Shown: piece after piece, positions 1,415-64,000 of the stretch | How positions within the stretch are numbered: the first letter of the stretch is position 1 | Layout of the letters: every line of letters begins with the position of its first letter | Assembly (NCBI GenBank): GCA_026874595.1 | Contig: CM049320.1 | Span: 22,577,714 to 22,641,713, forward strand | From: Sipunculus nudus | Lineage: Eukaryota > Annelida > Sipuncula > Golfingiida > Sipunculidae | DNA: 64,000 nucleotides | Direction: 5' to 3' | Notes under the pieces: model-generated | What the model was told of the DNA's origin: nothing | Seen by the model: only the letters and a program-made list of their open reading frames with translations | Database searches by the model: none | Made by a program: the position numbers and the translations under genes

Positions 1415-4384
1415 ACAAGGCCTACAGGCCTAATGCGAACCTGTGCATTGGGAAAAACACCAGGTATTATGCTTCAATGCTGGACCATTACTTTTCATGT
1501 ATATGAACAATGCAGGTACTAAACATTTTGAATAAGAAACAATTACACAAACATCACTGCTGAAATTCTGGCATGGGTGCACACAACACTAAAAAGATTG
1601 TAGCTGGCACCACCAGTCTTGTATACAACGTAGCTATCAGAGATATATACATATGCCCAATTTCAGACTGATATATCAAACCCCTCCTGAGAAAAACGCA
1701 GGGACACACACTGTGCAAAAGTCATTGTAGGTGGCGACACCTATCTTGTGAGCGAGAAAGCCATCAAAGACACATAGACAGGTCAAAATATTAGGCCAAT
1801 ACATCAAGTTTACCTTGAGTCTGATGCATGGGGCTGAACAGGCTTAGTGGAGAAAGGCTGTTGCCCCGAGTGAACTGTGACAAATTGCTTGCTCAGGTTA
1901 CTGCACTGAGTGAACTCATGACCTGCACCTGGCTAGACTGAGTGAACTTTTGACCTGTACCTGGCTGCACTGAGTGAACTCTTGACCTGTTGCATAATCT
2001 GACACAGTTAACAGTCTGCCAAAGCTATAAATAGAATGCAGCTACTGCACTGAGTAAACTCTTGACCATACCTGGCTGCACTGAGTGAACTCTTGACCTG
2101 TTGCCTAATCTGATACAGTTGGCAGTCTGCCAAAGCTATAATTAGATCCAGACTGACCTCTAGCCTGTTGCCAAATCTGAAATAGTAGCCACACCATTGC
2201 ATAAACTCATGCAGGTGCCCTGCCTTGAGGGGCTTGACACCCATGAAGTGATCACATGGTGCCCATGAGGTGTTCACATGTCACCCATGAGGTGATCACA
2301 TGCCTTGTACTTGGCTGCACTGAATGGAATCTTGACCTATATCTGGCTGCACTTAACGAACTCTTGATCTGTTGCCAAATCTGAAAGAGTTGACAGTTTC
2401 TCAACCTATTTAAAGATACGGATTCAATCTTGGCCTGTTGGTATATCTGTTAACACATACTGAAAGACTTTGGCTAAAATTTTTTTATTATTCATATTTA
2501 TAAACTTTTTTTATCAAAATATCTAGAATAATAAAAGATGACCAATGACCCCCGTACAAAAAAAGATTAATATAGGTGGCACCACCAATACCTGAATTTC
2601 ATATATGACTCATGTGACCAACAATGGCAAAAAAATAGGTGATGATAGCTCCGGCCGTTTCTGAGACTGTCATTTTAGTATGCTTTTTTGGACAGACAGT
2701 TCAACTTCCTGTAACTCGGCCAAAATTCAACAAACATGAACCATTGGAACAAAATTGAGGGAGATGGTATAAAAGATTATTTCTGTGAAATATTGAACAA
2801 TTTGGCTTGAGTGTTTCGGAGGAGAAGGTTTTAAAGTTTTTTATAGCTTTTTCTCTATAAAATTTAAGAAAATGCAGAGTTTTTGAGATGGCTAATTTTT
2901 TGCATTAAATTTCATTAGCTAGCTCCAATAATTTTCAAAATAAAATAGGTTATCGTACAGAAGACAAATGCCGCCACACCATCGCATTAGCTCACAGGTC
3001 CCCTAAAAATTATTAATAATGCAAATGAATGCAAAATTGTGATACAGATACATCTCACTGATGGCAAAATCTTGAATTAATTTGACTATGGATACCAATT
3101 ATTTATAATCCATGTACAGCCGTCTTTATATACCCATAGAAAGCTATATACCTGTAATTGTAAACATTGCCTGGCATGAGGAATATCTAAAAATCATAAA
3201 TCTACATTTTTTAAAAGCTTTTAAAAAACATTCTTTTCAATATTAACCATAGATAACTTGAAATCTAAATGTCTGGTGGCATGATGTAATAAATGCTGAT
3301 AAACTGGTGCCAGTCTAGATGTATCTGCTTCACACAGCTAACATATATGGTAAAATGACTCAATTCAATCTTTATAATTCAGCCAAAATTAATTCTTTGG
3401 AACCATAAAAGACAATTATTATAAGAATTTTTCAGGGGATTATTCTTGTAAAATATTAAACAAACTGGCCTCAGTAGCGTTAGTCAAAAAATGTTTTACA
3501 GGTTTATAACTCATATGGGAAAATACAGCAAAATGGCTAAGTTAAGCTTCCCATAACTCAGCCAAAAATCACTGAACCAAAACCATTTGAACAAACTTGA
3601 ATTTACAACATCTAAGAACAATTAATTTGTGAGATTTAAGAATTTGGTCCAGTGGTTTTTGAGGAGAAGATCTTTGTAGCCACTGAGCTAAAATGGGCTG
3701 TTACAGCATATGACTAAATTTAGCTTCCCATAACTCAGCCAAAAGTCACTAAACTGAGACCATTTGAACAAACTTCAGAAAGCACTACCCTAGAATCATT
3801 TCTGTGCGATATTAAACTATTTGGCCATATGGTTTCAGAGAAGAAGTTTTTTGTAGCCATCAGTATGATACAGGCACTGATGACCCCCGTACAAAAAAGG
3901 CCGATGCAGGTGGCGCCACCAATACCTAAATTTCAGATATGTCTTATGTCAACAACATTGGCATATAATTTGGTGATGATAGCTCCAGCCATTTCTGAGA
4001 CTGTAATTTTAGTATGCTTTTTTGGACAGATGACAAAGTTTAACTTCCTGTAACTCGGCCAAAAATCACCGAACTTAAACCATTCGAACAAACTTGAGAA
4101 AGATTGTTCCAGGGATCATTTCTGTGAAATATTGGACAATTTGGCTGAACAGTTTCAGAGAAGAAGATTTTTAAAGCTTTTTTAGCTTTTTCCCTATAAA
4201 ATCTAAGAAAATGCAGTTAGCCAAAAAATAAGCAAAATCCGATATAGTTTTTTAGATGACTAATTTTTTGCATAAAATTTTGTGATGCTACCTCTTGCCG
4301 TTTTAAAGATAGTATGGGTTAACGTACAGACGACGGACGCCGGACGACGCCACACCATCGCATAAGCTCACAGGTTCGCTAAAA
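1415..4384 (+). mobile_element. Element B copy 1 (tandem-core, subterminal inverted repeats)
   Basis: Starts ACAAGG with the palindromic AGGCCTACAGGCCT at 1418-1431, then GCGAACCTGTG at 1435-1445. Its inverse CACAGGTTCGC sits at 4369-4379, followed by TAAAA. The inside holds arrays of diverged tandem units of about 180-190 bases (for example CCATAACTCAGCC at 3549 and 3727) and a short-unit array near 1860-2345. A second terminus-like sequence at about 2988-3011 suggests internal duplication. No protein-coding capacity seen. The ends look like non-autonomous Helentron/HINE ('pearl'-type) elements of bivalves. Confidence 0.7.
1860..2345 (+). repeat. Short tandem array inside element B1
   Basis: Words such as CTGCACTGAGTGAACTC and TTGACCTGT recur about ten times with irregular 30-60-base spacing. 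Most of the array is missing from the other B copy. Confidence 0.65.
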
Positions 4385-4679: not shown

Positions 4680-5875
4680 TTGCACCTTTAAGAAAAATTC
4701 AGATTATGAATTAAAATTGCTTTGTTTTCGCCAAAACAGATATATGTCTCCCCATGAGCTAAATCAAAACATAAGGGTTTAAAAATACGTTCTCCGATCA
4801 AGAATGGCTGAGATTTCGGTAGAAAGAACTGGTGTGTAATGAAGGAGAAAAAAGTATTTAATACTTCAAAAGGTACGGTGCTACTCAATAATCCTAGAAT
4901 TGCACAGATCTGACCATGAAGATCAAGGTCAAGATCATCAGTGCCCATAATACTTTGAGAACTAAGTGGAAACAACTTGTGTGTTGAATCTGGCAGCAAA
5001 ATATGCAATACTTCGTAAGTTAATGTGTTCACAAAACAATCACTATAATTCGACTTATTTGACCTTGAAAGTCCAGGTCAAGGTTGTCATATATCAAACT
5101 GTTCAGAGAACTGCATTGAAACAAGAGGTGTAACTAAATGGATGAAAAAATGTGAAATACTAAAGTTATGGGGTTCACAAAAATGTTATAAATTATCAAA
5201 TTTGACCTTGAATTAGTACGTCGTCATGAATTTTCAAACTCGTCCAAGATTTTGGTAGAAACAATTTGTTTTCAAAAGTTATCGCATTCACAAGGTATCC
5301 TACAGACAACATCGACAACATTGGATGACAGATGATGGCACTGAAAAAAACGTGTCGCCTGGTGTGTGTGTGTGTGCGTGGGAGGGGGGGGGGGACATAA
5401 TGATAAGACCATGTTCATTTGATGATGTACTACAACATACAGACTAATAGTCCAACAATCAAATTTCGCAGAAATAATATGTCTTTTGATTTTGGCTCTC
5501 GTTGTCTTTCACGCTTGATAAGCAACCAAAATTATGACGTGGAGTAAATCTTGAGGGCACATGAAAACTTAAAACAGATGGACTATGACATGTGGAGACA
5601 TCTGCAGGGGAATATTAAAACTAAAATACACTGAGAAATTTGACCAAAATTTTAGAATTTTGACCTGGAGAGAAACATTTTTCAGATAGACACTCCAAAA
5701 CCTATCCAAACCAAGGTATGTATGAGAGCAATCACTGGTCCAAATTTGAATGAAATCTGATAAAATTTAGGAACGTTATCTAACGAAAGTGAAAAAAAAA
5801 CTTGACAGACAGACAGAGGGACAGACAGACAAACCCAAATCAATGTCACCTGCATCTGTGGAGCGGGGGACAAAA
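4680..5875 (+). repeat. Dispersed repeat with ~150-base diverged tandem units and GACA-rich end
   Basis: Units containing TTGACCTTGAA / CAAGGTCAAG and 'CACAAA...' recur between about 4900 and 5270. The right end has (GACA)n (5805-5832) and then GCGGGGGACAAAAAAA. The beginning is not defined and there is no partner end in the window. Confidence 0.5.
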
Positions 5876-7046: not shown

Positions 7047-10000
7047 CTGGAAAACACAGGAAAAATAAATTCAAATATAGAAACAAGGCCTTCAGGCCTA
7101 ATGCGAACCTGTGCATTGGGAAATACACCAGGTATAATGCTGCAATGCTGGACCATGACTTCTCATGTATATGAACAATGCAGGTACTAAACATTTTGAA
7201 TAAGAAACAATTACACACACATCACTGCTGAAATTCTGGCATGGGTGCACACAACACAACTAGGGACCCATGGGTCTCAACACTCAGTTGAATTTGTCTA
7301 TAAGGATATTTTGAAAGAAATTTTTCAGAATGACAGTCCTGTGACCTTAACCAATGACCCTGTGACCAAAAAATCTTAGAACTTAATATCCTTGAACTTG
7401 CAGGATTAGGATTATTGTAACAATCTTTTAAAAAGTGACCTTGACCTCTGACCAGATAACCTCTACAGGTTTCCTCACTTTGGGCAAGTAAGCCATATGA
7501 ACATTGGAAAGTTCAGGATGAAAAGTTTGATTTACAGTGCATCCACAATCTTTTTAAAGATGTGGCTTCTGTGACCTTCAACTTAGATCGCTGGACCCTG
7601 AAAATCAAAATGAATTTACATATGTGGTTGGTCATTATTAAATCAAATTTGAAGCTAGTCTGTCTATCCAAAGCAGAATTATCATCCATAAACTAATTTG
7701 AAAATGGATGGGCCCTGTGACCTTGATCTTTGACCTATGACCCAAAAATCAAACAGAATCTTCCCCTAGTGGCAGGTTAGCAATATCTTGAAGATGGAAG
7801 GTTTGCGATGAAATGTTTGGCTTCAAATGCATACACATTCCATTTAAAGAAATGGGTCCTGTGACCTTGACCTTGGACGTTGGACCCCAAAATCAACATG
7901 GTTCTTACTTTAGTGGTGGGCCATTTATAAGTTAAGTTTGAAACCAATATCAAACTTAACTGGAGTTATCATCTGGAAACTAATTTGTGTGGATGGACGG
8001 ATTGACAGACAGACAGACATACAAACAGACAGACTGACACACAGGGTCAGGGTGATTAGTATAGGGCATCCACTTGTGATCAATAAACACACCAGGTTTT
8101 GGGACACCAGTTGTAATGACAGCTGAGAAACTGACATGATTGTTGTCATTTTATAGTAAATAAATAGAAAAATATTTGTTAAAATAGGAAAACCACCATG
8201 TTTCAGGAACTGACAAAACTAGTCATGGTTAATATTCAAGGCAAGATTCATGACAAACCATGCATTAATTATCAAGATATTGGTGGTTTTGTATCAAATT
8301 TTTTACTATTCTGGGGGGTACTTTCAAGCCCCATAACTCGAAGGAAAAAGGTTGCAGTGACCTAATTTCAGGTTTCCAAGGAAATTTTTAACTGACCTCC
8401 CTGTATGTTCACTTAGAAGTTTCTAGGACCAGCTGGTATGATTTGAGGTGATCACATGGTACCCATGAGGTGTTCACATGTCATCCATGAGGGGATCTCA
8501 TGCCTTGTGCTTGGCTGCACTGACTGAACTCTTGACCTATATCTGGCTGCACTGAATGAACTCTTGATCTATTGCCAAATCTGAAACAGTTGGCAGTTTC
8601 TTAACTTATGTAAATATACAGACACAATCTTGGCCTGTTGGCAAATCTGTTTACACATACTGAAAGACTTTGGCTAAAATGCTTTTTTTCAAGCTGAAAT
8701 ATTCATAAACTTTTTATCAAAATATCTAGAAAAATAAAAGATTCAGTTCTTTCATTGTTAAAGGTTCAATAATTCTGCCAAAAATCATTAAAGTAAACTT
8801 GAACAAAGGCCACCTTAGAATATTTTTTCTGCCATGTAACAGAAGTTATAATTGAAACAATAATTTTGTAGAAGAACAGTTTTGCAGTCCTCAGTTTGAG
8901 TTAGACATAATAATGGCCATAAGACCAACTTAAGTTTTTCTGATATTATTGAAAGAACCATGTCCTACGATAATTCTTTTGAAAAATTGAACGATTCAAC
9001 TTGACAGTTTGATCATATACATTTTAAGCTGAAAGAGGCTAAAATCATGAGGTTTATTGCCCATAAAAAACAGGTCAATTTAGGTGGCACATCAAAATCT
9101 GCAACCTCAAATATGAGTCATGTGACCAACATTTGCACAATACTTGGTAATGCTAGCTTCTGTCATTTCTGAGATAACTATGTCAGTATGCTTACTTGGC
9201 CAAATGACTGTTCAAATTTGTGTAACACCACTAAAATTCATCAAATGCAAACCATTTGAACATACGGGAGAGCTTGCCTCTCGGATCATTACTGTAAAAT
9301 CTGAACAATTTGGCTGGACCGTTTACAAGAAGACTTTTAAAGGTTTTTCAGCTTTTCCCCTATAAAATCTAAGTAAATGCAGAAAAAGCAAAAAACATAA
9401 GCTGAATCCCACAACATTTGATATGTTACAGATAATTGCATAAAATCTGGGGATGGTAGCTCCTGCAATTCCTGAGAAATTATGGGTTGATATACACATG
9501 ACCAATGACCCCTGTACAAAAAAAGGTCAATGCAGGTGGCGCCACCAATACCTGAATTTCATATATGACTCATGTGACCAACACTGGCATAAAATCTGGT
9601 GATGATAGCTCCAGCCTTTTCTGAGATCGTCATTTTAGTATGCTTTTTTGGACAGATGACTAAGTTCAACTTCCTGTAATTCAGCCAAAATTCACAGAAC
9701 TTGAACCATTTGAACAAACTTGAGAGAGATGGTATAAAAGATTATTTCTGTGAAATATTGAACAAATTGGCTTGACCGTTTCAGAGGAGGAGATTTTTAA
9801 GGGTTTTTTAGCTTCTTCTCTATAAAATCTGAAAAAATGCAGATTTTTTCAGATGGCTAATTTTTTGCATTAAATTTCATGATGTTAGCTCCAATCATTT
9901 TCGAAATAGTATGGGTTAACGTATACCTGTGATTGTAAACATTGCCTGGCATGAGGAATATCTAAAATCATAAATCTACATTTTTTAAAAGTTTTAAAAA

Positions 10001-13000
10001 AACATTCTTGTCAATATTAACCAAAGATAACCTGAAATCTAAATGTCTGGAGGCATGATGTAACGGATGCTGATAAACTGGTTCCAGGCTAGATGCATCT
10101 TCTTCACACAGCTAACATATATGGTAAAATGCCTCAATTCAATCTTTATTATTCAGCCAAAATTCATTCTTTGGAACCATAAAAAAACAATTATTATAAG
10201 AATTATTCAGGGGATTATTCTTGTAAAATATTAAACAAATTGGCCTCAGTGGCGTCAGTCAAAAAGCATTTTGCAGTTTTATAACTCATATGGGAATATA
10301 AAGCAAAATGGCAAAGTTAAGCTTCCAATAACTCAGCCAAAAATCACTGAACCAAAACCATTTGAACAAACTTGAATTATCAACATCTAAGGATAATTAC
10401 TGTGTGAGATTTAAGAATGGGCCCAGTGGTTTTTGAGAAGAAGATCTTTGTAGCAACTGAGCTAAAATGGGCTGTTATGGCATATGACTAAATTCAGCTT
10501 CCCATAACTCAGCAAAAATTCACTGAACTGAGACCATTTGAACAAACTTCAGAAAGCACTATCCTAGGATCATTTCTGTGCGATATTAAACAATTTGGCC
10601 AAATGGTTTCAGAGAAGAAGTTTTTTGTAGCTGTCAGTATGATACGGGCACTGATGACCCCCATTCAGAAAAGGCCAATGCAGGTGGCGCCACCAATACC
10701 TGAATTTCAGACATGTGACCAACATTGGCATAAAATTTGGTGATGACAGCTCCAGCCGTTTCTAAGATTGTAATTTTAGTATGCTTTTTTGGACAGATGA
10801 CTAAATTCAACTAGCTGTAACTCGGCCAAAAATTACCGAACTTAAACCATTCAAACAAATTTGAGAGAGATTGTTCCAGGGATCATTTCTGTGAAATACT
10901 GGACAATTTGGCTGAATAGTTTGGGAGAAGAAGATTTTTAAAGTTTTTTTTACCTTTTTCTCTATAAAATCTAAGAAAATGCAGTTAGCCAAAAAATAAG
11001 CAAAATCCAATAGAGTGTTTGAGATGACTAATTTTTTGCAGAAAATTTCTTGATGCTAACTCTTGCTGTTTTTAAGATAGTATGGGTTAACATACAGACG
11101 CCGGACGCTGGACAACTCCACACCATCGCATAAGCTCACAGGTTCGCTAAAAAGAAAACAAGAGACCAACAGGTCATGGTGCTCAGCTGAATTTTAAAAA
11201 TTTTAGCTAATGCTTAATACATGTATACTTCTTTCTGTTGTTTTTTTATACATAAATTATCACTGTTTATATAACATCATTGTTTAATCAACTGAAGACA
11301 CTGAGATGGTAGCACAAGCTATCTAGTTCAGATCTATTCTAGTTAAAGCAGGTCTACATACCTTTCCTACCAGTACTTTTTCATTTTCATCTGCTAGTTA
11401 AACTACCACTTTCCATAAGTAAGACAAAAATTCATTATTCTGTTGGAAAGATAATAAATATTACATTCACAGTTGACTTATGTGTATTATCAATAACTAG
11501 GCTGCATTTACTTCAAAACATCTTGTCAGCAGAAACTGAGGTAGCCGAAACTGATTCAAACTGAGTTCTGGCTGACAGGGTAACCACAAGAAATTTATGT
11601 AATATTTTTTCTTCATTAATTAGCAAATAAACCATGACTATATAAGCCTATGATGCCTCTGACTGTAAACTGGAAAAGCACTTTACTTCAGTTTATTGTG
11701 CATTTTGGTCTAAGAAGACATGGGCTGTACTGCTTATAACCTATATGACATAAGCAGTATGAACGTATTTGTGTAATATTCCTGTTTTATAAGGGATATA
11801 ATTTAAACTGTGAATTTATGCAATTGCTTTACTGTAACAGAAATTTGTTTTAATTAATTGAGATATTCATGATTGTGATGGGTTTTATCCATTTACAAGA
11901 CACAGATCATATGGGGCAAAGAATCCTACCTAAGTGCATACATGGGGTGGTAACTAAAATGTACTCTCACATATATTGCAGTTGGCTCTATTGCACGCTC
12001 CATAAGCAGTGGCTACACTACCTGCTGCATTAAACGGCCGCTGTCTCAGTGGAATTCCCCCTGCGTTATATTTAACCAAACACATTGCAGATGTCACCAG
12101 CACAAACAGATGTTCTTCGAGGTAAAGTTCACTTTTGCTGTGGAAAGCACTTGGTAGCACAGACTTTTTCACCCCCATTAGAATACACATGATGCAATTG
12201 ATGCTTTCAACACAGTCTGTATACTGACTTGCCTGAGGTCAGTTATCCCCTACTGTCTGCATATTTCCTGTATTGCATGCTACGTAGGCTTGCCCCGAGC
12301 ATAGCTATGTTTGTTTATTCACTAAGCCAATCAGATTTCTTCTACCAGTTCTGCAGATTTGTTTAAATGCAGAGCCAATCAGATTTTACTTTATCCAGCG
12401 CAAACTGACTGGGTGTGCCAAACCTGAAGAATCCTGCTATTTCTCACAGCATGTGGGTGGAAGGTCACCGGGCCGGGAAGTAATGCGCTGTGTTCAGAGC
12501 GTAGCTCTATTGGTGGGGATATAATTTTGTGATTTTCATGTTTGTATAGTTTCATGAGGGTTTAATTTCCGTGACCATACTAAACAGTGGCAATGTAAAG
12601 TATAAAGGCCTAACATATTGACAAACTAACCATCAGGTGCCAAAAACCTTAATAGTTTCACATGGACTCTAGGGTAAAATCTAATAGTTTAGGACCTGGG
12701 GCAAAATCTAATAGTGGAAATTAATAATGTTTATTATTGGCAAATAATACACTAATATTTAGTTTAATTATACTGATATTAATTATGATTTTAATATTCA
12801 ATTTCAGGGGCAGATCCAGGATTTCGAAAAGGGAAGGGTCATGCCTAAGAAGACTGAAACAAAACCAAAAAAAAAAAACAAGGGACCTATGGGTCACGGC
12901 GCTCAGCTGATCGTGATTGGACTATAAATGTTTCTCCACTGTGATACTATATCAAGTTGATAAAGCTTATGAATATCATGGACATGTTGGGCTATTATAA

Positions 13001-16000
13001 AGGAATGTAATGTAATATGTGAGTAAATGATAAATAAAATTACCTGACTGATGGATTAATAGAGTCAAATATAGTGGTTTATATTTTATTTATTTAGGAG
13101 GGGTTGAAAATTGTGATATATTTGAGCAAATATGAATGCAATGACAGCAGTAATAAGCAGTAGTAGAATGATGATATGGCTATTTGTTGAAGGATCTAAA
13201 GTGTATGGTGGTCTGCAAGCTTTCAATTTGACAGATATGATGTTATGATTAACTATGCTGATGAAGTGATTTATGAATTTGTGACTGTATGACACAATAT
13301 CTCTTTAGTCTTGACAAGGTGCATAATTGTGATGCCCACTATGTCTACATATTACACAATATTGACATAATTTCTGGCATGTACATAGGTACCTATGGAC
13401 GAATAGTTTTACAAAATATTAAAGTATGAATATATCTGATTCATCTTGTTCTTGCTTACTGAGGCTGACTTTGGGATGGGGTTCGGAGAAGGGAAAAGTG
13501 AGGGCAGCACGAAGGTGGATGTAGAAATATTCTATTGTAATGTTTTTCATTTATATAAGAATATGAAAATCTAAGAGGAAAGGGCCCCTCCTACTTGGTT
13601 ATAGTAAAGTTCTAAATATATGATTGCAAACTAATACTCTGACAAGACTGTCATGAAGAAAAACAGTAAAAGTTTTGAGATACTGTGATGCATATGAAAA
13701 TTTACAGATGGACAGGCAAGTGGACAGAATGGACTAATACCTTTATTTCACTTTCAAGGGAATAATCCATTTAAGTTTATATATAATCCTATTTTTTTAA
13801 GCATATCCACTTTTTCCATTAAAAAGTTTTTATCTGAATCATTTTTTTATTTACAGGTTTCATAAATTTTTAATAAAAAAAACTGAAAATATAAGTTAGA
13901 ATTGTTGCAAAAGTTGCAATCATTATATATCCAGAGTGTAGCTCATATTGGGTCATATTATGCATACACATATATTTTATTATTTTTAAATCATAAATGT
14001 TTAAACTGAATTTAAAAGAATATAATGCCGCAACATGGCATCTACAAGAATATTCCTTAAATCACTATTAAAAAGTTTTGCACATTGGAGTTTTCAGTAC
14101 ATGCTTAATTTTATTCACCAAAATAAAATAAAAGATTCAGTAAATTTGATAAAATAAAACATCTTTTCAAATAAAGTATACACACTGTTGGTTGAATGAG
14201 GGACAAACAATATCATTGTGCTAATTACTATCCCAGTTTTAATTTATTACTGGAATTAAAAGTCAATTTCACACCTGGTGAAGTTTTTACTCTTCTGAAG
14301 TAAGGAATTACTTATCTCATGAACATCCACACTTTCATAGCAATACACCACTTTGTGGACACAATTAAATGTACACTTTAATCATTGTAACCCTAGTGGT
14401 ACAATACAAAATCTAAAATGTAGCATAGCCTAGAATAAGAATGAATCAAATACAGAAAATAATAACATTCATCTAGTTTATGCACCATGGGGGGGGGGTG
14501 TAGGGCAGAGGGGAAGCCTGCTGGTAGTGGCCAAGCTGACCCAAGGCAAGCTGCCTGGGGTGGGTTACATAATGCAAGTGAAGGCTGTACTACTAGGTGG
14601 GCTAGATGTAAACAACACTTGACATGGACTATGAAAACATGAATTAAAGCTATTCTTTCCAATCAATTTCTTTGAATTTCAGATTTTAAAAGATTAAATC
14701 CTTATGTATATATGTTGTGAAAATTAAATCAACAGTGCCAAAGTTGGACAACATTTAAGGTATTGATTTTTTATTTATGCTAATAACTTGAAAAATTTGC
14801 AAAATTCAGATCTAATTTTGGGTAAACAATTGAATCTTGATTAAATAAAGTTATATTCCTGAAAAAAAGTCTCTAGGTTCAGCAATTCTCATGTTAGGTG
14901 AGTAAATATATTTCCTGATTTTTTTAAAAATTGCATTATGTTTTGGCCCATAACTTCAAAATAATACCCAATACTGACCTAATTTTTGGTATGTTCATAG
15001 AAAATGTATGAAAGAATGTGAATACTAATTATGATCAATAACAGATCAGTGGTTTTGATATTAGGCAGCCTTGAAGTGTAACAATGGCTTTTTTTTATGG
15101 AAAACAGAGTTTTTTTTCCTTAATATCTCGAAGGAACAAAGTCTTTATGACCCAATTTTCGGTATGGTAGGAGATTTTGGGGACATCTAAAATTATGCAA
15201 ACAGCCTGGGGAGCATAGAGATGTGCACTGAATGACCTACAGTCATCAAAGTGGACTGCTTGACAATGTAAGGGAATACAACAAGAGCCTCCAAAAAAAT
15301 TCAGTAACTAGCCTAATTTTGCAGCTTTTATTTTCAAATTTCAGATTTTAACAGATTAAATCCTTATGTATACATGCTGTGAAAATTAAATCCACAGTAC
15401 TTACAGGAAAAAAACGTGCCATGGCCAAAGTTGGGCAAAATTTAAGGTACCAATTTTATATTTTTTGCCAATATTTAAAAAAAATTAACAGATTTTGATC
15501 TAATTTTTGGTATACAATGAAATTTTGATTAATTTAAGTTGTATTACTGATAAAAAGTCCCTACCTTTAACACTTTTGGTCTTAAGTGACCAAATATCTT
15601 CCTGATTTTTTTACAAAGTCCATTATGTTTGGGCCCATAACTTCTTTAAATTATAAAATACTGACACAATATCTGGCATGTACATAGGAACTATATAGAG
15701 GAATATTTATGGTAAATATGAAGAAAACCAGATGAGTGGTTTTGATATTAGGCAGTCCTGAAGTGTGAAAATAGATTTCTAATAAAAAATTGAGGTTTTT
15801 CCTTAATATCTCGAAGGAACGAAGTCCTATTGACCCAATTTTCGGCATGGTAGGAGATTTTTGGGACATCTAACTGTATGCCAAATTGCAAATTCGTAGG
15901 TCCAACGGTGTCGAAACACGCCAGTCTTATGGACGGACATCCAGACGGACGGACAGACAGACGGACGACGGACAATGGACCGCGACTATAGCTCAGATGA

Positions 16001-16955
16001 CTTATAGTCAGCTGAGCTAAAAAGTCCTCTGGTCCAGGAAGGAGGTGGTCAGGATCGCAAAATTTGGGTTTGAAACCCTAAAAAAGAGGTTGTTTTGGCT
16101 TGAAAAGGGGGGGGGGGGGGGGTAAGGACCCCATTGACCAACCCTCTTAATCTGCCACTAGATTTATGGAAACAATTAAAGATCTGTTAAAATTCATAAT
16201 ATCTTTCTTTTTGCCTTTCATTTTCAGACATCAGAGGCATGGAAAACATATATGAAATGCCAAAGAGGCAACACTAAAATTTCAGATGGGGGATCAAATT
16301 TACGATGGTTTGATTTCCACGATTATTTTACTTTCATGAATATCGTAGATTTGAAACCCTTGCAAACAAAAATACATTCACAGTATTGAACATTTTAGTT
16401 AGCCTCTCACATCTTACCTGTAGAGTGCTGATGGGGTCCTGACTTGTCTGCTGCTGCAGCTTCTTGGCTGTCTGACTGTCAGGATGGATGATACTGTACA
16501 GTCTGACAGTGGCTGCAGCATCTTCTAACCTACAATATTACCATCTTTAATATCAATATATTAATTATAAAAAAAATTGTGTGTGATACAATACCTCCTA
16601 TTAATACATGATTTTAATCATTTTTCCATTACTTATACCAATAAACATTCTATTCCATCGAAATGTTTGACACAAGCATCACTACTGCCTTCAATTATTG
16701 TAAAACTTTTTGATTAAGTTATAAGCATTAAAAATAATTAAGTTATTTTAATGCTGAGGTGTTTTGCTCAGACAACATAGGTTAATCATCATTTAAATTT
16801 TTTCAAAACTTTATTAGGATCGTAAATTTGCAGATTCTGATACCACTCTCTTCCCAAAAGTATATGTATAATCCATTATTACACATCCAATTCTACATAT
16901 GACATTTTGATTATTTATATATATATATATATATGTATTTATGTATGTATATATG

Positions 16956-58400: not shown

Positions 58401-61400
58401 TTACTTTGTCCGAAGGTTAATTTAAAACAATGGCAATATATGCAATCTAGAGCCTGCACGACTAGAAGAAAGGGGAAAAACAGAAAAGATGGAAATATAT
58501 CCGATGCTTTTCACTCAGGGGACTTTACAAAGTAAACCAGCAGAAAAGCAATATCGATATAGATATAAACTAATTAATCCCATGTAGGGGAGGATGAATA
58601 AATATATTTCACGAAGCGGTCTTACCTCGTCCTCCTTGTTGACGTCGATTCCCTTCTTTATCAGTAAAGCAGCGAAGTCGTACATACCTTCATACGAGGC
58701 CAGCCACAACAGGTTCCTACCATCCTAGAGGTGAAATATCATATGACATATATACAGAATCAATTCAGAACAGTACAAAACATCACATAAACTGGGTCAG
58801 GTCATTGCTTTCCTATAATATCTTTATTATGATCTAATGTGCAAGGACTCTTTATTATATAAATACAACACGGATTTTACGCTGGATCAATTTATTTAAA
58901 CATAACACTTCATGTTTAAACACAGTATGAAATTTATTAATGCAAGGGTTCTCTTTTTGATCTCATTTAGAGTCTCTTTATTATTATCGCCTGTGCTAGA
59001 TCTCTTTATTTAAAAAAAAACACTGAGTATACCCTGGATCCACTTATTTCAATGCAACACTTAATGTTTAAATATTGCATGGATTGTATTACCGCAATTG
59101 TTCTCTTTTCGATCTGATATAGATTCTCGCGATAACCTATGATTTTCTTGTTGGAATATTTGTCAGAAACATAATATGACATTGTATTAAACCATTGTGC
59201 AAAATTTCGTTATACCATTCAAGCATAAACTGGGAGTGTATTATATTTGAAAGAGCACAGGAATTTAAGGAATAATAAACTGAGATAAAGGGTCCAATAT
59301 AGTCCGATACTATGCTTGAAGCATATTATCAAAATAATATTAAATTTTTTATTGGCTAAAAATGTATGCAGTTTTTTTTTCTTGTCCTAATCTATGTTGT
59401 TGATTTATTCAGTCATTGGTTACTCACTGGAGAAACATGGTCAACATCCGCCCCTCTCTGACAAAGCAACATTGCGATGTCGTTATGCTTGTTGGTGACA
59501 GCCGTTCGCAGAGCGTTTGTCCCATTCTGTTTCAAGGGAGAAACTTTGTGATGAGTAAATGAATTGATACACTATTGTTAATATACACTTGTTCACTATC
59601 GTCCTTATCAGTAAAACAGTATAAGAGTTATATTAACATATCAGATTCAGTGTGAAAGGCATTGACGTGAATAGAGCAGACGGCGAAGTAATCTGGTGAA
59701 AATTCTATATAAAACAAGTGACCCATGGGTCATGACGCTCAGCTGACTGGGAAGAGATTCGCAAAAGGAAATTTTTTCATCTGAATGGTAGTATATACCC
59801 ATTCAACTGAAGCATCAAACAGATTAACCAACAGGGCAAAATTGTGTCTGTATTTTTAAAGGTCTCAAAAATAGAGAAAAAAATTCGTAAAAAATCGAAA
59901 AATACAGGTGGCGCCACCAGTCTGCAGGAACTGATGGAATATCTCATGATCAATATGTATGCAAAAAATCATGACCATCAGTGATGTAGTTAATGAGATA
60001 TTGATGTTTTTGTATGAAATTTTTTACTTTTCTGGGGGGTACTTTGGGGCCCCATAGCTCGAAGGATATGGGTAACAGAGACCTAATTTCTGGTTTCCAA
60101 GGAGATTTTCATGGACCTCTCAGAATGCCAAGTTACAAGGTTCTAGGTCCAGCGGTTACGATTTGTGCCTGGTTAACGGACGGACAGACGGACAGACGGA
60201 CGACGGACAAAGAGTGATCGCTATAGCTCAGATGACTTTCAGTCAGCTGAGCTAAAAAAGGGAAAACACAGGCTTGAGGGAGATGGCAGTTATGCCAGAC
60301 CCTGTGTCAAGAAATGATAACAACTAAGTCTTAAGTGGTCGCATGCATAAAATAAACATTTTTTTTCTGTGATGCGAGATTTCTATGCTTTGAATACTGC
60401 GATTTGTTTTATCCCATTTGATAAAGAAAGAATAATTTTATAGAAGAATAAAGATACAACCTGCGTTTAAACATTACTGTGAGGCAGGTAGAAGTGATCG
60501 CCATTTCATGCAACAATACACTAGCTGTTTTCCTGAATGGAATCGGCCTTTATGAATCAAAGTGAATAAAGGAGTACCGCAAGAATGCATAATATGCCCG
60601 TCGTAGGTACTCTATCGTTATGCATTGCTTTTGCGTAAAAAAATAATTCAGGCGAGATACTGTATTAAATTTCATTCACAATGAAACAACTTTTAGGTAG
60701 GTTATTCTGGCGTCACCATAAGGGAGTCTTTTGACCTTAGACCTTACCAGATATATGCAGATTTTGCCTATAATCCAGGTTGACTGAGACACGTTATCAA
60801 TCAATATTCACTGCGAGTTTTGTGAAAAGACATTTTTATGGTAGGTTTCAGCGATGACGCCATATTAATGTGTAGACGGCCGGTCAGATATAAGGAGGAA
60901 TGGGCAGACGCCGCCGCGCCTTAACATGACCCGTCTATAATGATATTAATCATATTGAATAAACATGTACCTTCGCCACTTTCTTCACATCAGCTCCATT
61001 GTTCAGGAGAAATTTTACAACATCTACATGACCGTTTTGGGCTGCTACTATCAAGGCCGTGCTACCTTCCTGTAAATATAGGAAAATAAAAATCATGTAC
61101 AAGAAAACATATTAGCAAATACAGGCAGGCGGTTATACACTGCTGTTATGCACCGAAATCATCCCATATTTCCTTCGTTCTAACTTTGTTCAGCAGGTTT
61201 TTCGAGGCCTCGCCATCAGGTGGCACAGGGCCAAGAATCAAACCGAAGAGAGTGGCGTGTTGCGGATTTAAACTTGGAGCTGGATGCACAAAGCAACGCC
61301 ACGCTCTCATTGGCCTGAAAACAATTCTTGCTGATGGTAAAACAAGGAGAATCTTGCTTTACAAAGCAGCGGCTAAAGCGAACGAGATCTGGATCGACTG

Positions 61401-62860: not shown

Positions 62861-64000
62861 AGATGTGTCGGAACGACACGAATGCCCCCGCCTGGGGCAA
62901 ATTAGAAACATTTGTTAAATTTTGTAATTCAGGAGGTGTAATATGGTCAAAAGTAGGTCAACAAGGGCAAAATACAAACTCGATCTGTAACGGATCATTA
63001 TCAAGCAACACACCAAAAATCAGGCCAGTATCTGCAGGCATTGTAAAAAAAGTCCATACATGTGCAAACATTAGGCCAGTATCTGTAAGCATTGCATTGC
63101 AAAACTAGAATATTAGCAAAACCTGATAATCAGTTATAAATTTAAATTGGAGAGGTATGTACCATGTTTCATAACAATCCACCAAATGCTTCCTGAGAAA
63201 TAAGCTCCTAAGTTTTTTTCTATATTAAGCTATGTGACCTTGAAAAGTAGGTCAAGAACACCCATCTTTGAACTTGACCAAGATTTTGTAAATATGATGC
63301 ATTAGCACTGAAGAAATGAAGTTCCTGTGTTGAATACCTATGGAGATATCCTGCACAAAAGGCCAACATTGAAAAATCTGAAAAAAATTCATTAAAAAAT
63401 CAGAAATTGTAGGTGGTGCTTCCAAAATTGTGCAGCTAGCACAGACCGTCATTTCAAATGATCATAGTAAGTTTTGTGAAAATCCACACAATGGTTCCTG
63501 AGATATAAGCTTCTGAGTGTTTTTCTATAATCAGCTCTAAAACGAAGAAAAATAGGTCAAGGTCACCCATCTTTGCACTTGACCAAGATTTTGTTGATAT
63601 ACATCTTCACTGATGAAATTAAATTCCAACGGTGAATCATTTTAGAGATATCCCGCTCACAAGGCCAAAATTGAAAAATCCGATAAAAATTTATTAAAAA
63701 ATCAGAAATTGCAGGTGGCGCCACCAAAATTGTGAAGCCCATACAGACCATCAGTCCCAATGATCATAGTAAGTTTTGTGGAAATTCACACAATGGTTCC
63801 TGAGATATAAGCTTCTGAGTGTTTTTCTATGATCAGCTCTAAAATGTAGAAAAATGGGTCAAGGTCACCCATCTTCGAACTTTACTGAGATTTTATCGAT
63901 ATACATCTTCACTGATGATATAAATTTCCAAGGGTGAATCCTTTTAGACATATCTCGCTCACAAGGTAAAAGTTAACAGACGCGGACGGACGGACGGACA
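62861..64000 (+). mobile_element. Element D, left part (runs off the window)
   Basis: Begins with hairpin GTGTCG-GAA-CGACAC (62865-62879), then CCCCCGCC. From about 63165 it carries tandem units of about 301 bases (AAGTTTTGTG at 63470 and 63771, an earlier diverged one near 63165), each with CACAATGGTTCCTGAGATAT and AGGTCAAGGTCACCC. The last bases are (GGAC)n. Its 3' end is outside the window. Confidence 0.65.

Follow-up and report, generated by a model that had tools for sequence, protein, structure and literature searches.

Helentrons and HINEs

Helentrons and HINEs are the closest described relatives of the repeats considered here, and what is said of them is taken from extracts of the papers cited. 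Helentron subterminal inverted repeats (subTIRs) lie 2-4 nt from the 5' end, a palindrome lies near the 3' end, a GSPH Rep signature serves as a Helentron mark and subfamilies are delimited by a rule of 80% over the last 60 bp; in the mite, the 3' subTIR is found at a distance of 38-60 nt (PMC4067079). In oyster HINEs, a complementary inverted repeat and a GTCY microsatellite adjoin the 5' subTIR, none of 10 autonomous Repbase Helentrons was relatable to the Cg_HINEs of Crassostrea gigas according to that study, and pearl elements, first described as MITEs, were later filed as non-autonomous Helentrons (PMC7492417). Oyster Helitron-like sequences are described, in an extract of another study, as being without the Rep motif and helicase domain (PMC7992393). 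In fungi, the corresponding extract notes OTU domains in Helentrons and reports that no fungal Helitron with an endonuclease domain was found (PMC5148889).

The two repeat families described here, A and B, come from a 64,000-nucleotide stretch of contig CM049320.1 of Sipunculus nudus (the window). They resemble Cg_HINE in having a 5' subTIR, a complementary inverted repeat, a GTCY-type microsatellite, satellite-like repeats, a 3' subTIR, a palindrome and T-rich insertion without target duplication, a likeness of layout taken from the published description; unlike the Cg_HINE case, coding elements here share both A ends and an internal array (PMC7492417). The bivalve pearl family (CvA, DTC84 and others) is also alike by description, being gene-less with short internal arrays (PMC7492417). 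Helentrons and HINEs of the mite, Culex and Drosophila, including DINE-1, are alike in having a coding partner with Rep, helicase and endonuclease (the endonuclease match in our coding element C17 is just under the cut-off), shared subTIRs, a 3' palindrome, the GSPH Rep signature, a preference for TT and HINEs that outnumber their partner, while the 3' subTIR distance here, 20-23 nt, is shorter than the 38-60 nt of the mite (PMC4067079). Helitron2/FoHeli of Fusarium oxysporum has asymmetric terminal inverted repeats and hairpins and inserts adjoining a T-run, as A and B do, but its end letters differ from theirs (PMC5148889). In later, mainly open-access literature, judged by title or the start of the abstract, no such partner of a bivalve HINE appeared among the matches listed.

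Two families with one terminal layout

The window holds four elements, all on the minus strand: a short and a long copy of family A (A-short, 59714..60257, 544 bp; A-long, 12878..16022, which sits inside another repeat) and two copies of family B (B1, 1415..4384; B2, 7083..11152, which is broken by a nested A-related piece). A solo A-type 3' end, also on the minus strand (11158..11190), lies 5 bases from the B2 5' end. Read along the forward strand, family A has the subterminal repeat GCTCAGCTGA and then its inverse TCAGCTGAGC followed by TAAAA, and family B has GCGAACCTGTG and then CACAGGTTCGC followed by TAAAA; these repeats, their inverses and the ends given for them in the preliminary description are in place in all four elements (two A, two B). 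The direction in which they had been read, from ACAAG to TAAAA, must be reversed. The elements lie on the minus strand, which the published Helentron/HINE order fits, and the plus-strand reading was ruled out, coding frames and published order both placing the hairpin 3'. The ACAAG palindrome is therefore the 3' terminal hairpin and TAAAA the 5' T-run adjoining the 5' subTIR, which gives the order 5' TTTTA-subTIR ... subTIR-hairpin-CTTGT 3'. In this sense, the subTIR begins 5 nt from the 5' end in both families, and between its inverse and the 3' end there are 23 nt in A and 20 nt in B, the order there being subTIR, 3-4 nt, palindrome and CTTGT. The outer letters TTTTAGC and CTTGT are common to A and B, and the subTIRs measure 12 bp in A-short, 11 bp in B and only 10 bp in A-long.

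In A-short, whose features are all on the minus strand except where stated, the terminus TTTTA, the end of a T-run (60253..60257), is followed by the 5' subTIR GCTCAGCTGA (60243..60252; 12 bp with its extension). Next to it are found both an inverted repeat complementary to this subTIR (60225..60237), for which the fold predicts a hairpin of -10.9 kcal/mol, and a GTCY-type microsatellite (GTCC/GTCT) adjoining the 5' end (60179..60209). Then come a single array unit (59852..60180), which occurs in tandem near the 5' end of the coding Helentrons C13 and C17 discussed below and which carries the palindromic box GGTGGCGCCACC (59907..59918, no strand assigned), the 3' subTIR TCAGCTGAGC (59737..59746), the 3' palindrome TGACCCATGGGTCA (59719..59732) and the terminus CTTGT (59714..59718). 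In the folds, the perfect palindrome at the A-short 3' end was not chosen as a hairpin, and B showed no comparably strong 5' hairpin.

Several further claims made for these elements proved partly right. A terminal palindrome, as in HINEs, with arms of at least 6 is present in A-short, B1 (AGGCCT-AC-AGGCCT, 1418..1431 on the minus strand) and B2, but A-long has a weak palindrome only. Of the supposed tandem-repeat cores, that of B has several partial repeats and that of A-long one diverged duplication (75.7% over 555 bp), whereas A-short has a single unit. The absence of genes from the cores holds when measured by frame length alone, since stop-to-stop frames reach at most 109 codons. Finally, the two families are not devoid of shared sequence, as had been thought, because the box GGTGGCGCCACC, exact or with 1 mismatch, is present in A-short and in both B copies, and a stretch of 42-43 bp is common to A-short and B in inverted orientation. 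The latter, at 59817-59860 in A-short, resembles the B interior and lies outside the part that A-short has in common with the C17 Helentron. The A-related piece nested in B2 occupies 7259-8445 (approximate limits), where B sequence is missing, and its 3' end reads ACTAG, that is, CTAGT in element sense.

The assignment to HINEs, already proposed in the preliminary description, is upheld by the order of the ends, by T-run insertion without target duplication (A-long) and by coding Helentrons with A ends. As in HINEs, subTIRs of about 11-15 bp lie near the 5' end and deeper at the 3' end, and family A copies lie in T-rich targets, in the case of A-long without duplication. A coding Helentron in the genome with at least 11 identical subTIR bp was found for A (GCTCAGCTGAC, 11 bp, in C17), whereas the same comparison for B yielded one locus, on the 3' side only, with 1 mismatch and in a number not above chance. 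Canonical Helitrons, which have 5' TC and 3' CTRR and insert between A and T, were rejected, since here the ends are TTTTAGC and CTTGT and the bases next to them are T's. That A and B belong to a known kind of element is well confirmed.

Copies and insertion sites

A scan of the genome (1.43 Gb, 153 contigs) gave 18,316 exact matches to the A 3' palindrome-end pattern, 21,190 matches to the pattern of A 5' end plus inverted repeat and 4,419 exact copies of the B 3' palindrome-end pattern, these last with varied loop letters; the reversed control gave 0 for each. Collecting the ends genome-wide, which had been suggested as a check, has brought to light thousands of further A-type and B-type palindrome ends and none of the reversed patterns. 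Within the window, three of the four elements combine the layout with palindrome arms of at least 6, a combination seen 0 times in 100 Markov-1 shuffled windows. When the palindrome is not demanded, the window has five pairs, as against 12 in all 100 Markov-1 windows, and one of the five (11158 with 16022) is the solo end joined to a neighbour, not an element. In the literature, a search with the A and B end letters gave, among the matches listed, no transposable-element paper by title.

Variation among A ends bears on the hairpin. One varied pair of the A hairpin is A-T in 83 and G-C in six of the 89 matches listed (of 5,239), with no mixed pair, in a search limited to the ACAAGTG form; the ACAAGGG form has a mixed-pair example among the matches listed. 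This pattern of letters supports a hairpin kept in family A, though it may reflect one old change.

Near-full copies of A-short are 94-100% identical (40 scored of 2894 candidates). Exact motifs located both junctions for six of the eight short A copies that were fetched, and each of the six has a T-run ahead of AGCTCAGCTGACT at its 5' junction and a T after CTTGT at its 3' junction. When the flanks of A-long were joined, 39 of the 40 scored places (917 candidates) crossed the junction, at 79-88% identity, the remaining one being the window's own right flank. At three A-long empty sites read at base level, there is an A/T run and neither an element nor a duplication; because the target is such a run, the exact insertion cut is ambiguous. 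As a side observation, CAATTTTT precedes the A 5' ends in L002, L004, L005 and L006 and the second 5' end in L047, and the same stretch occurs in the Helentron unit; judging by this sequence context, it is as if copies had entered the T-run of another copy's unit.

Coding Helentrons with A ends

An autonomous Rep-helicase element with the same ends, the partner that the preliminary description had looked forward to, was found for family A. This Helentron, C17, is about 14.9 kb long and consists, in order, of an A 5' end, a frame of 2342 codons (stop to stop) and an A 3' end, the latter lying about 1 kb past the stop. The 5' end, T-run included, is about 6.8 kb ahead of the frame, and 0.7 kb downstream of it comes another A 5' end, so that the element could also start at this inner one. 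In the two long pieces of the frame, Pfam matches over cut-off are Herpes_teg_N, DUF6570, Helitron_like_N (96.2 bits), PIF1 (82.3 bits) and Herpes_Helicase, while Exo_endo_phos (E 5.7e-5, 23.4 bits) is just under its Pfam cut-off of 24.5 and Exo_endo_phos_2 scores 22.6 bits against a cut-off of 27.4. Herpes_teg_N in C17 is presumably an OTU-like protease. The Rep motif is GSPHIH both in C17 and in a second locus, C13, with the S between G and P which, together with a helicase, distinguishes Helentrons.

Starting from the 5' end, A-short is matched by C17 at 82% over 421 bp and by C13 at 94.6% over 424 bp, and both loci continue past this match into tandem copies of the A-short unit; in the C13 array, four of ten spacings between boxes are 337 bp. 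From the exact 5' T-run, collinearity between C17 and C13 extends across array and spacer into the ORF, a stretch in which no A-type 3' end was found. On the 3' side, four other Rep loci (L052, L053, L060 and L070) are 98.3-98.7% identical to C17 over some 1118 bp, a similarity that breaks off 1-3 bases past CTTGT; the 26 kb of sequence examined for C13 yielded no A-type 3' end. Three things tie family A to coding Helentrons: its two ends, the boundaries of the copies and the tandem array. This link is new, and it is what the oyster study, in the extract cited, sought and could not make (PMC7492417).

A-short is not just a C17 element that has suffered a deletion. Once past the 5' 400 bp, it aligns with C17 solely in its last 37 bp (97%), and because of this the two represent different subfamilies, not families; sharing no more than these 37 bp on the 3' side, they fall short of the rule of 80% over 60 bp (PMC4067079). 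The array being inside coding Helentrons, the origin of HINE cores becomes testable, and the array may descend from a coding Helentron rather than having been captured by each HINE. Two side observations concern the same elements: window positions 4810-5276 resemble the coding-Helentron spacer (68-83% in pieces), and in the reverse complement of L053, a single Rep locus is followed by two A-type 3' ends (1184-1261) separated by 45 bases.

Rep loci and the partner of family B

Helitron_like_N has 143 matches in the genome, from which 21 Rep 3' flanks were chosen for varied match limits and frame lengths. An A-type end in Rep orientation was present in 12 of the 21 (13 matches, all with at most 4 substitutions) and was not found in the other nine; two A-type ends lay against the Rep orientation, and the reversed control gave 0 in 62,018 bases. 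Counting exact patterns only, six A ends in the flanks lie with and one against the orientation, 0.40 being expected in each. The GSPHxH motif occurs in 27 of 30 Rep loci, and the A-type ends accompany the GSPHIH type, whose five rows are 53-95% identical to one another and about 29-36% identical to the GSPHAH rows. Within it, the Reps of C17, C13 and L034 are 80-94% identical, and the flank of L034 (L056) has an A-type end. When four larger regions (C17, C13, F12 and F20) were scanned, the A 3' end was found in C17 only; F12 and F20, of the GSPHAH clade, had neither A nor B ends, and no convincing subTIR-hairpin pair of any kind emerged from a scan of F12.

The corresponding check for B had a mixed outcome, a decayed Rep-helicase locus with a B 3' end being found, but in a number not above chance. 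L057, one of the Rep flanks in which no A end was found, contains B-like repeats; once extended (C11), it shows a B 3' end, differing by 1 mismatch, that has the same orientation as a Rep (Helitron_like_N, 89 bits) and a fragment of PIF1 and lies 7.5 kb past them. No B 5' end with at most 4 substitutions was found between Rep/PIF1 and this 3' end; the frames are broken, the Rep motif is GSTHVH and Pfam finds no endonuclease. The C11 Rep is 49-53% identical to the GSPHIH rows and forms a clade with the five of them (100/100; the five alone 95/95) in a midpoint-rooted tree of 11 rows. However, its B 3' end is the only one in 268,463 bases of Rep-associated loci, about the chance number (0.42 exact ends expected per orientation). 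C11 was therefore withdrawn as a clear partner and is retained as a candidate whose chances are about even. Another Rep flank with B-like repeats (L065) showed no B end when extended.

How the families may move

Families A and B are very probably minus-strand HINEs, with the coding Helentron of A present in the genome, its Rep-helicase most likely recognising the A ends, and B, which has the same layout in other letters, most likely moved by a related Helentron. Nicking, unwinding and joining are the general steps of Helitron and Helentron movement. In the present case, the Helentron Rep-helicase would recognise the 5' T-run/subTIR and the 3' subTIR-hairpin-CTTGT, Rep would nick at the T/subTIR end and the helicase would unwind the DNA, one strand being peeled off; the 3' subTIR-hairpin-CTTGT would mark the end of the element, and the peeled strand would be joined into a T-run without target duplication. 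We infer that recognition, nicking and movement of the window copies are the work of C17-type proteins.

One Helentron enzyme might instead move both families, a common enzyme having been suggested in the preliminary description, reading the layout more than the letters, and this would accord with the identical layout and common outer letters (TTTTAGC and CTTGT) of A and B and with the finding that A-type ends accompany somewhat divergent Reps (F17 and L034 are 81% identical). It is nevertheless rather unlikely, because the letters of subTIR and hairpin are fully different between the families, A-type letters are kept within A-end elements, and the sole B end near a Rep accompanies a Rep that is related to, but distinct from, those with A ends, in a find not above chance. 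A more sceptical reading takes the likeness of A and B for convergence or chance, with B no Helentron derivative at all. The unsettled B partner, the want of a strong 5' hairpin in B and empty-site evidence that covers A-long only all leave room for it, but B fits the layout to within 3 nt, is flanked on each side by a T-run and has a palindrome end present in 4,419 exact copies with varied loop letters, so that we regard this reading as very unlikely.

The link between A and its coding partner could itself be questioned, in that A ends are very common and HINEs nest in related sequence, so that abundant HINEs might simply lie beside unrelated Helitron genes. An orientation bias of 13 to 2, six exact ends where 0.40 are expected, a 3' kilobase that C17 and four further loci share up to CTTGT and no further, and the collinearity of C17 and C13 from the 5' T-run into the ORF make such chance neighbourhood highly improbable. 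Still harder to believe is a cut-and-paste reading, in which A and B would be MITEs or similar elements bounded by terminal inverted repeats. Short inverted repeats do lie near both ends, and pearl was originally described as a MITE (PMC7492417, in the extract cited), but the ends are asymmetric, three empty sites have no target duplication and the coding elements encode Rep and helicase. With A and B as HINEs, there are two end types with one geometry, which makes end recognition by Helentron Rep testable by end swaps.

A palindromic box in different arrays

A palindromic box, GGTGGCGCCACC, is common to otherwise different arrays, which is a new finding. It occurs in the units of A-short and B, of a further array (63176-63966) and of the arrays in C17 and C13, its sites in the window being 59907-59918, 3909-3920, 9535-9546, 10683-10694 and 63714-63725. 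The 15-mer CAGGTGGCGCCACCA occurs 53,678 times without mismatch genome-wide and its reversed pattern only 2 times, and the flanks of 73 boxes (at most 1 mismatch) fall into clusters of 44, 20, 5, 3 and 1; the box was not found in F12 or F20, and a literature search with it gave, among the matches listed, no repeat paper by title. In the C13 array, conservation is 0.93 in the box and 0.84 in the rest of the unit, but since the box ranks only 26th of 308 windows, a special constraint on it is unsupported. Related Helentron lineages might have swapped their end letters and kept their geometry, with GGTGGCGCCACC retained in the arrays as a common element and putative protein site, a proposal that we advance tentatively and think rather unlikely, the more so in view of the chance count for C11. 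If it were true, GGTGGCGCCACC would serve the arrays in common as a site for a protein, of Helentron or host origin, aiding array formation or copying. Near the end of the window, an array of 302-bp units with the box (63064-63994) is 86% like a stretch of the C13 region.
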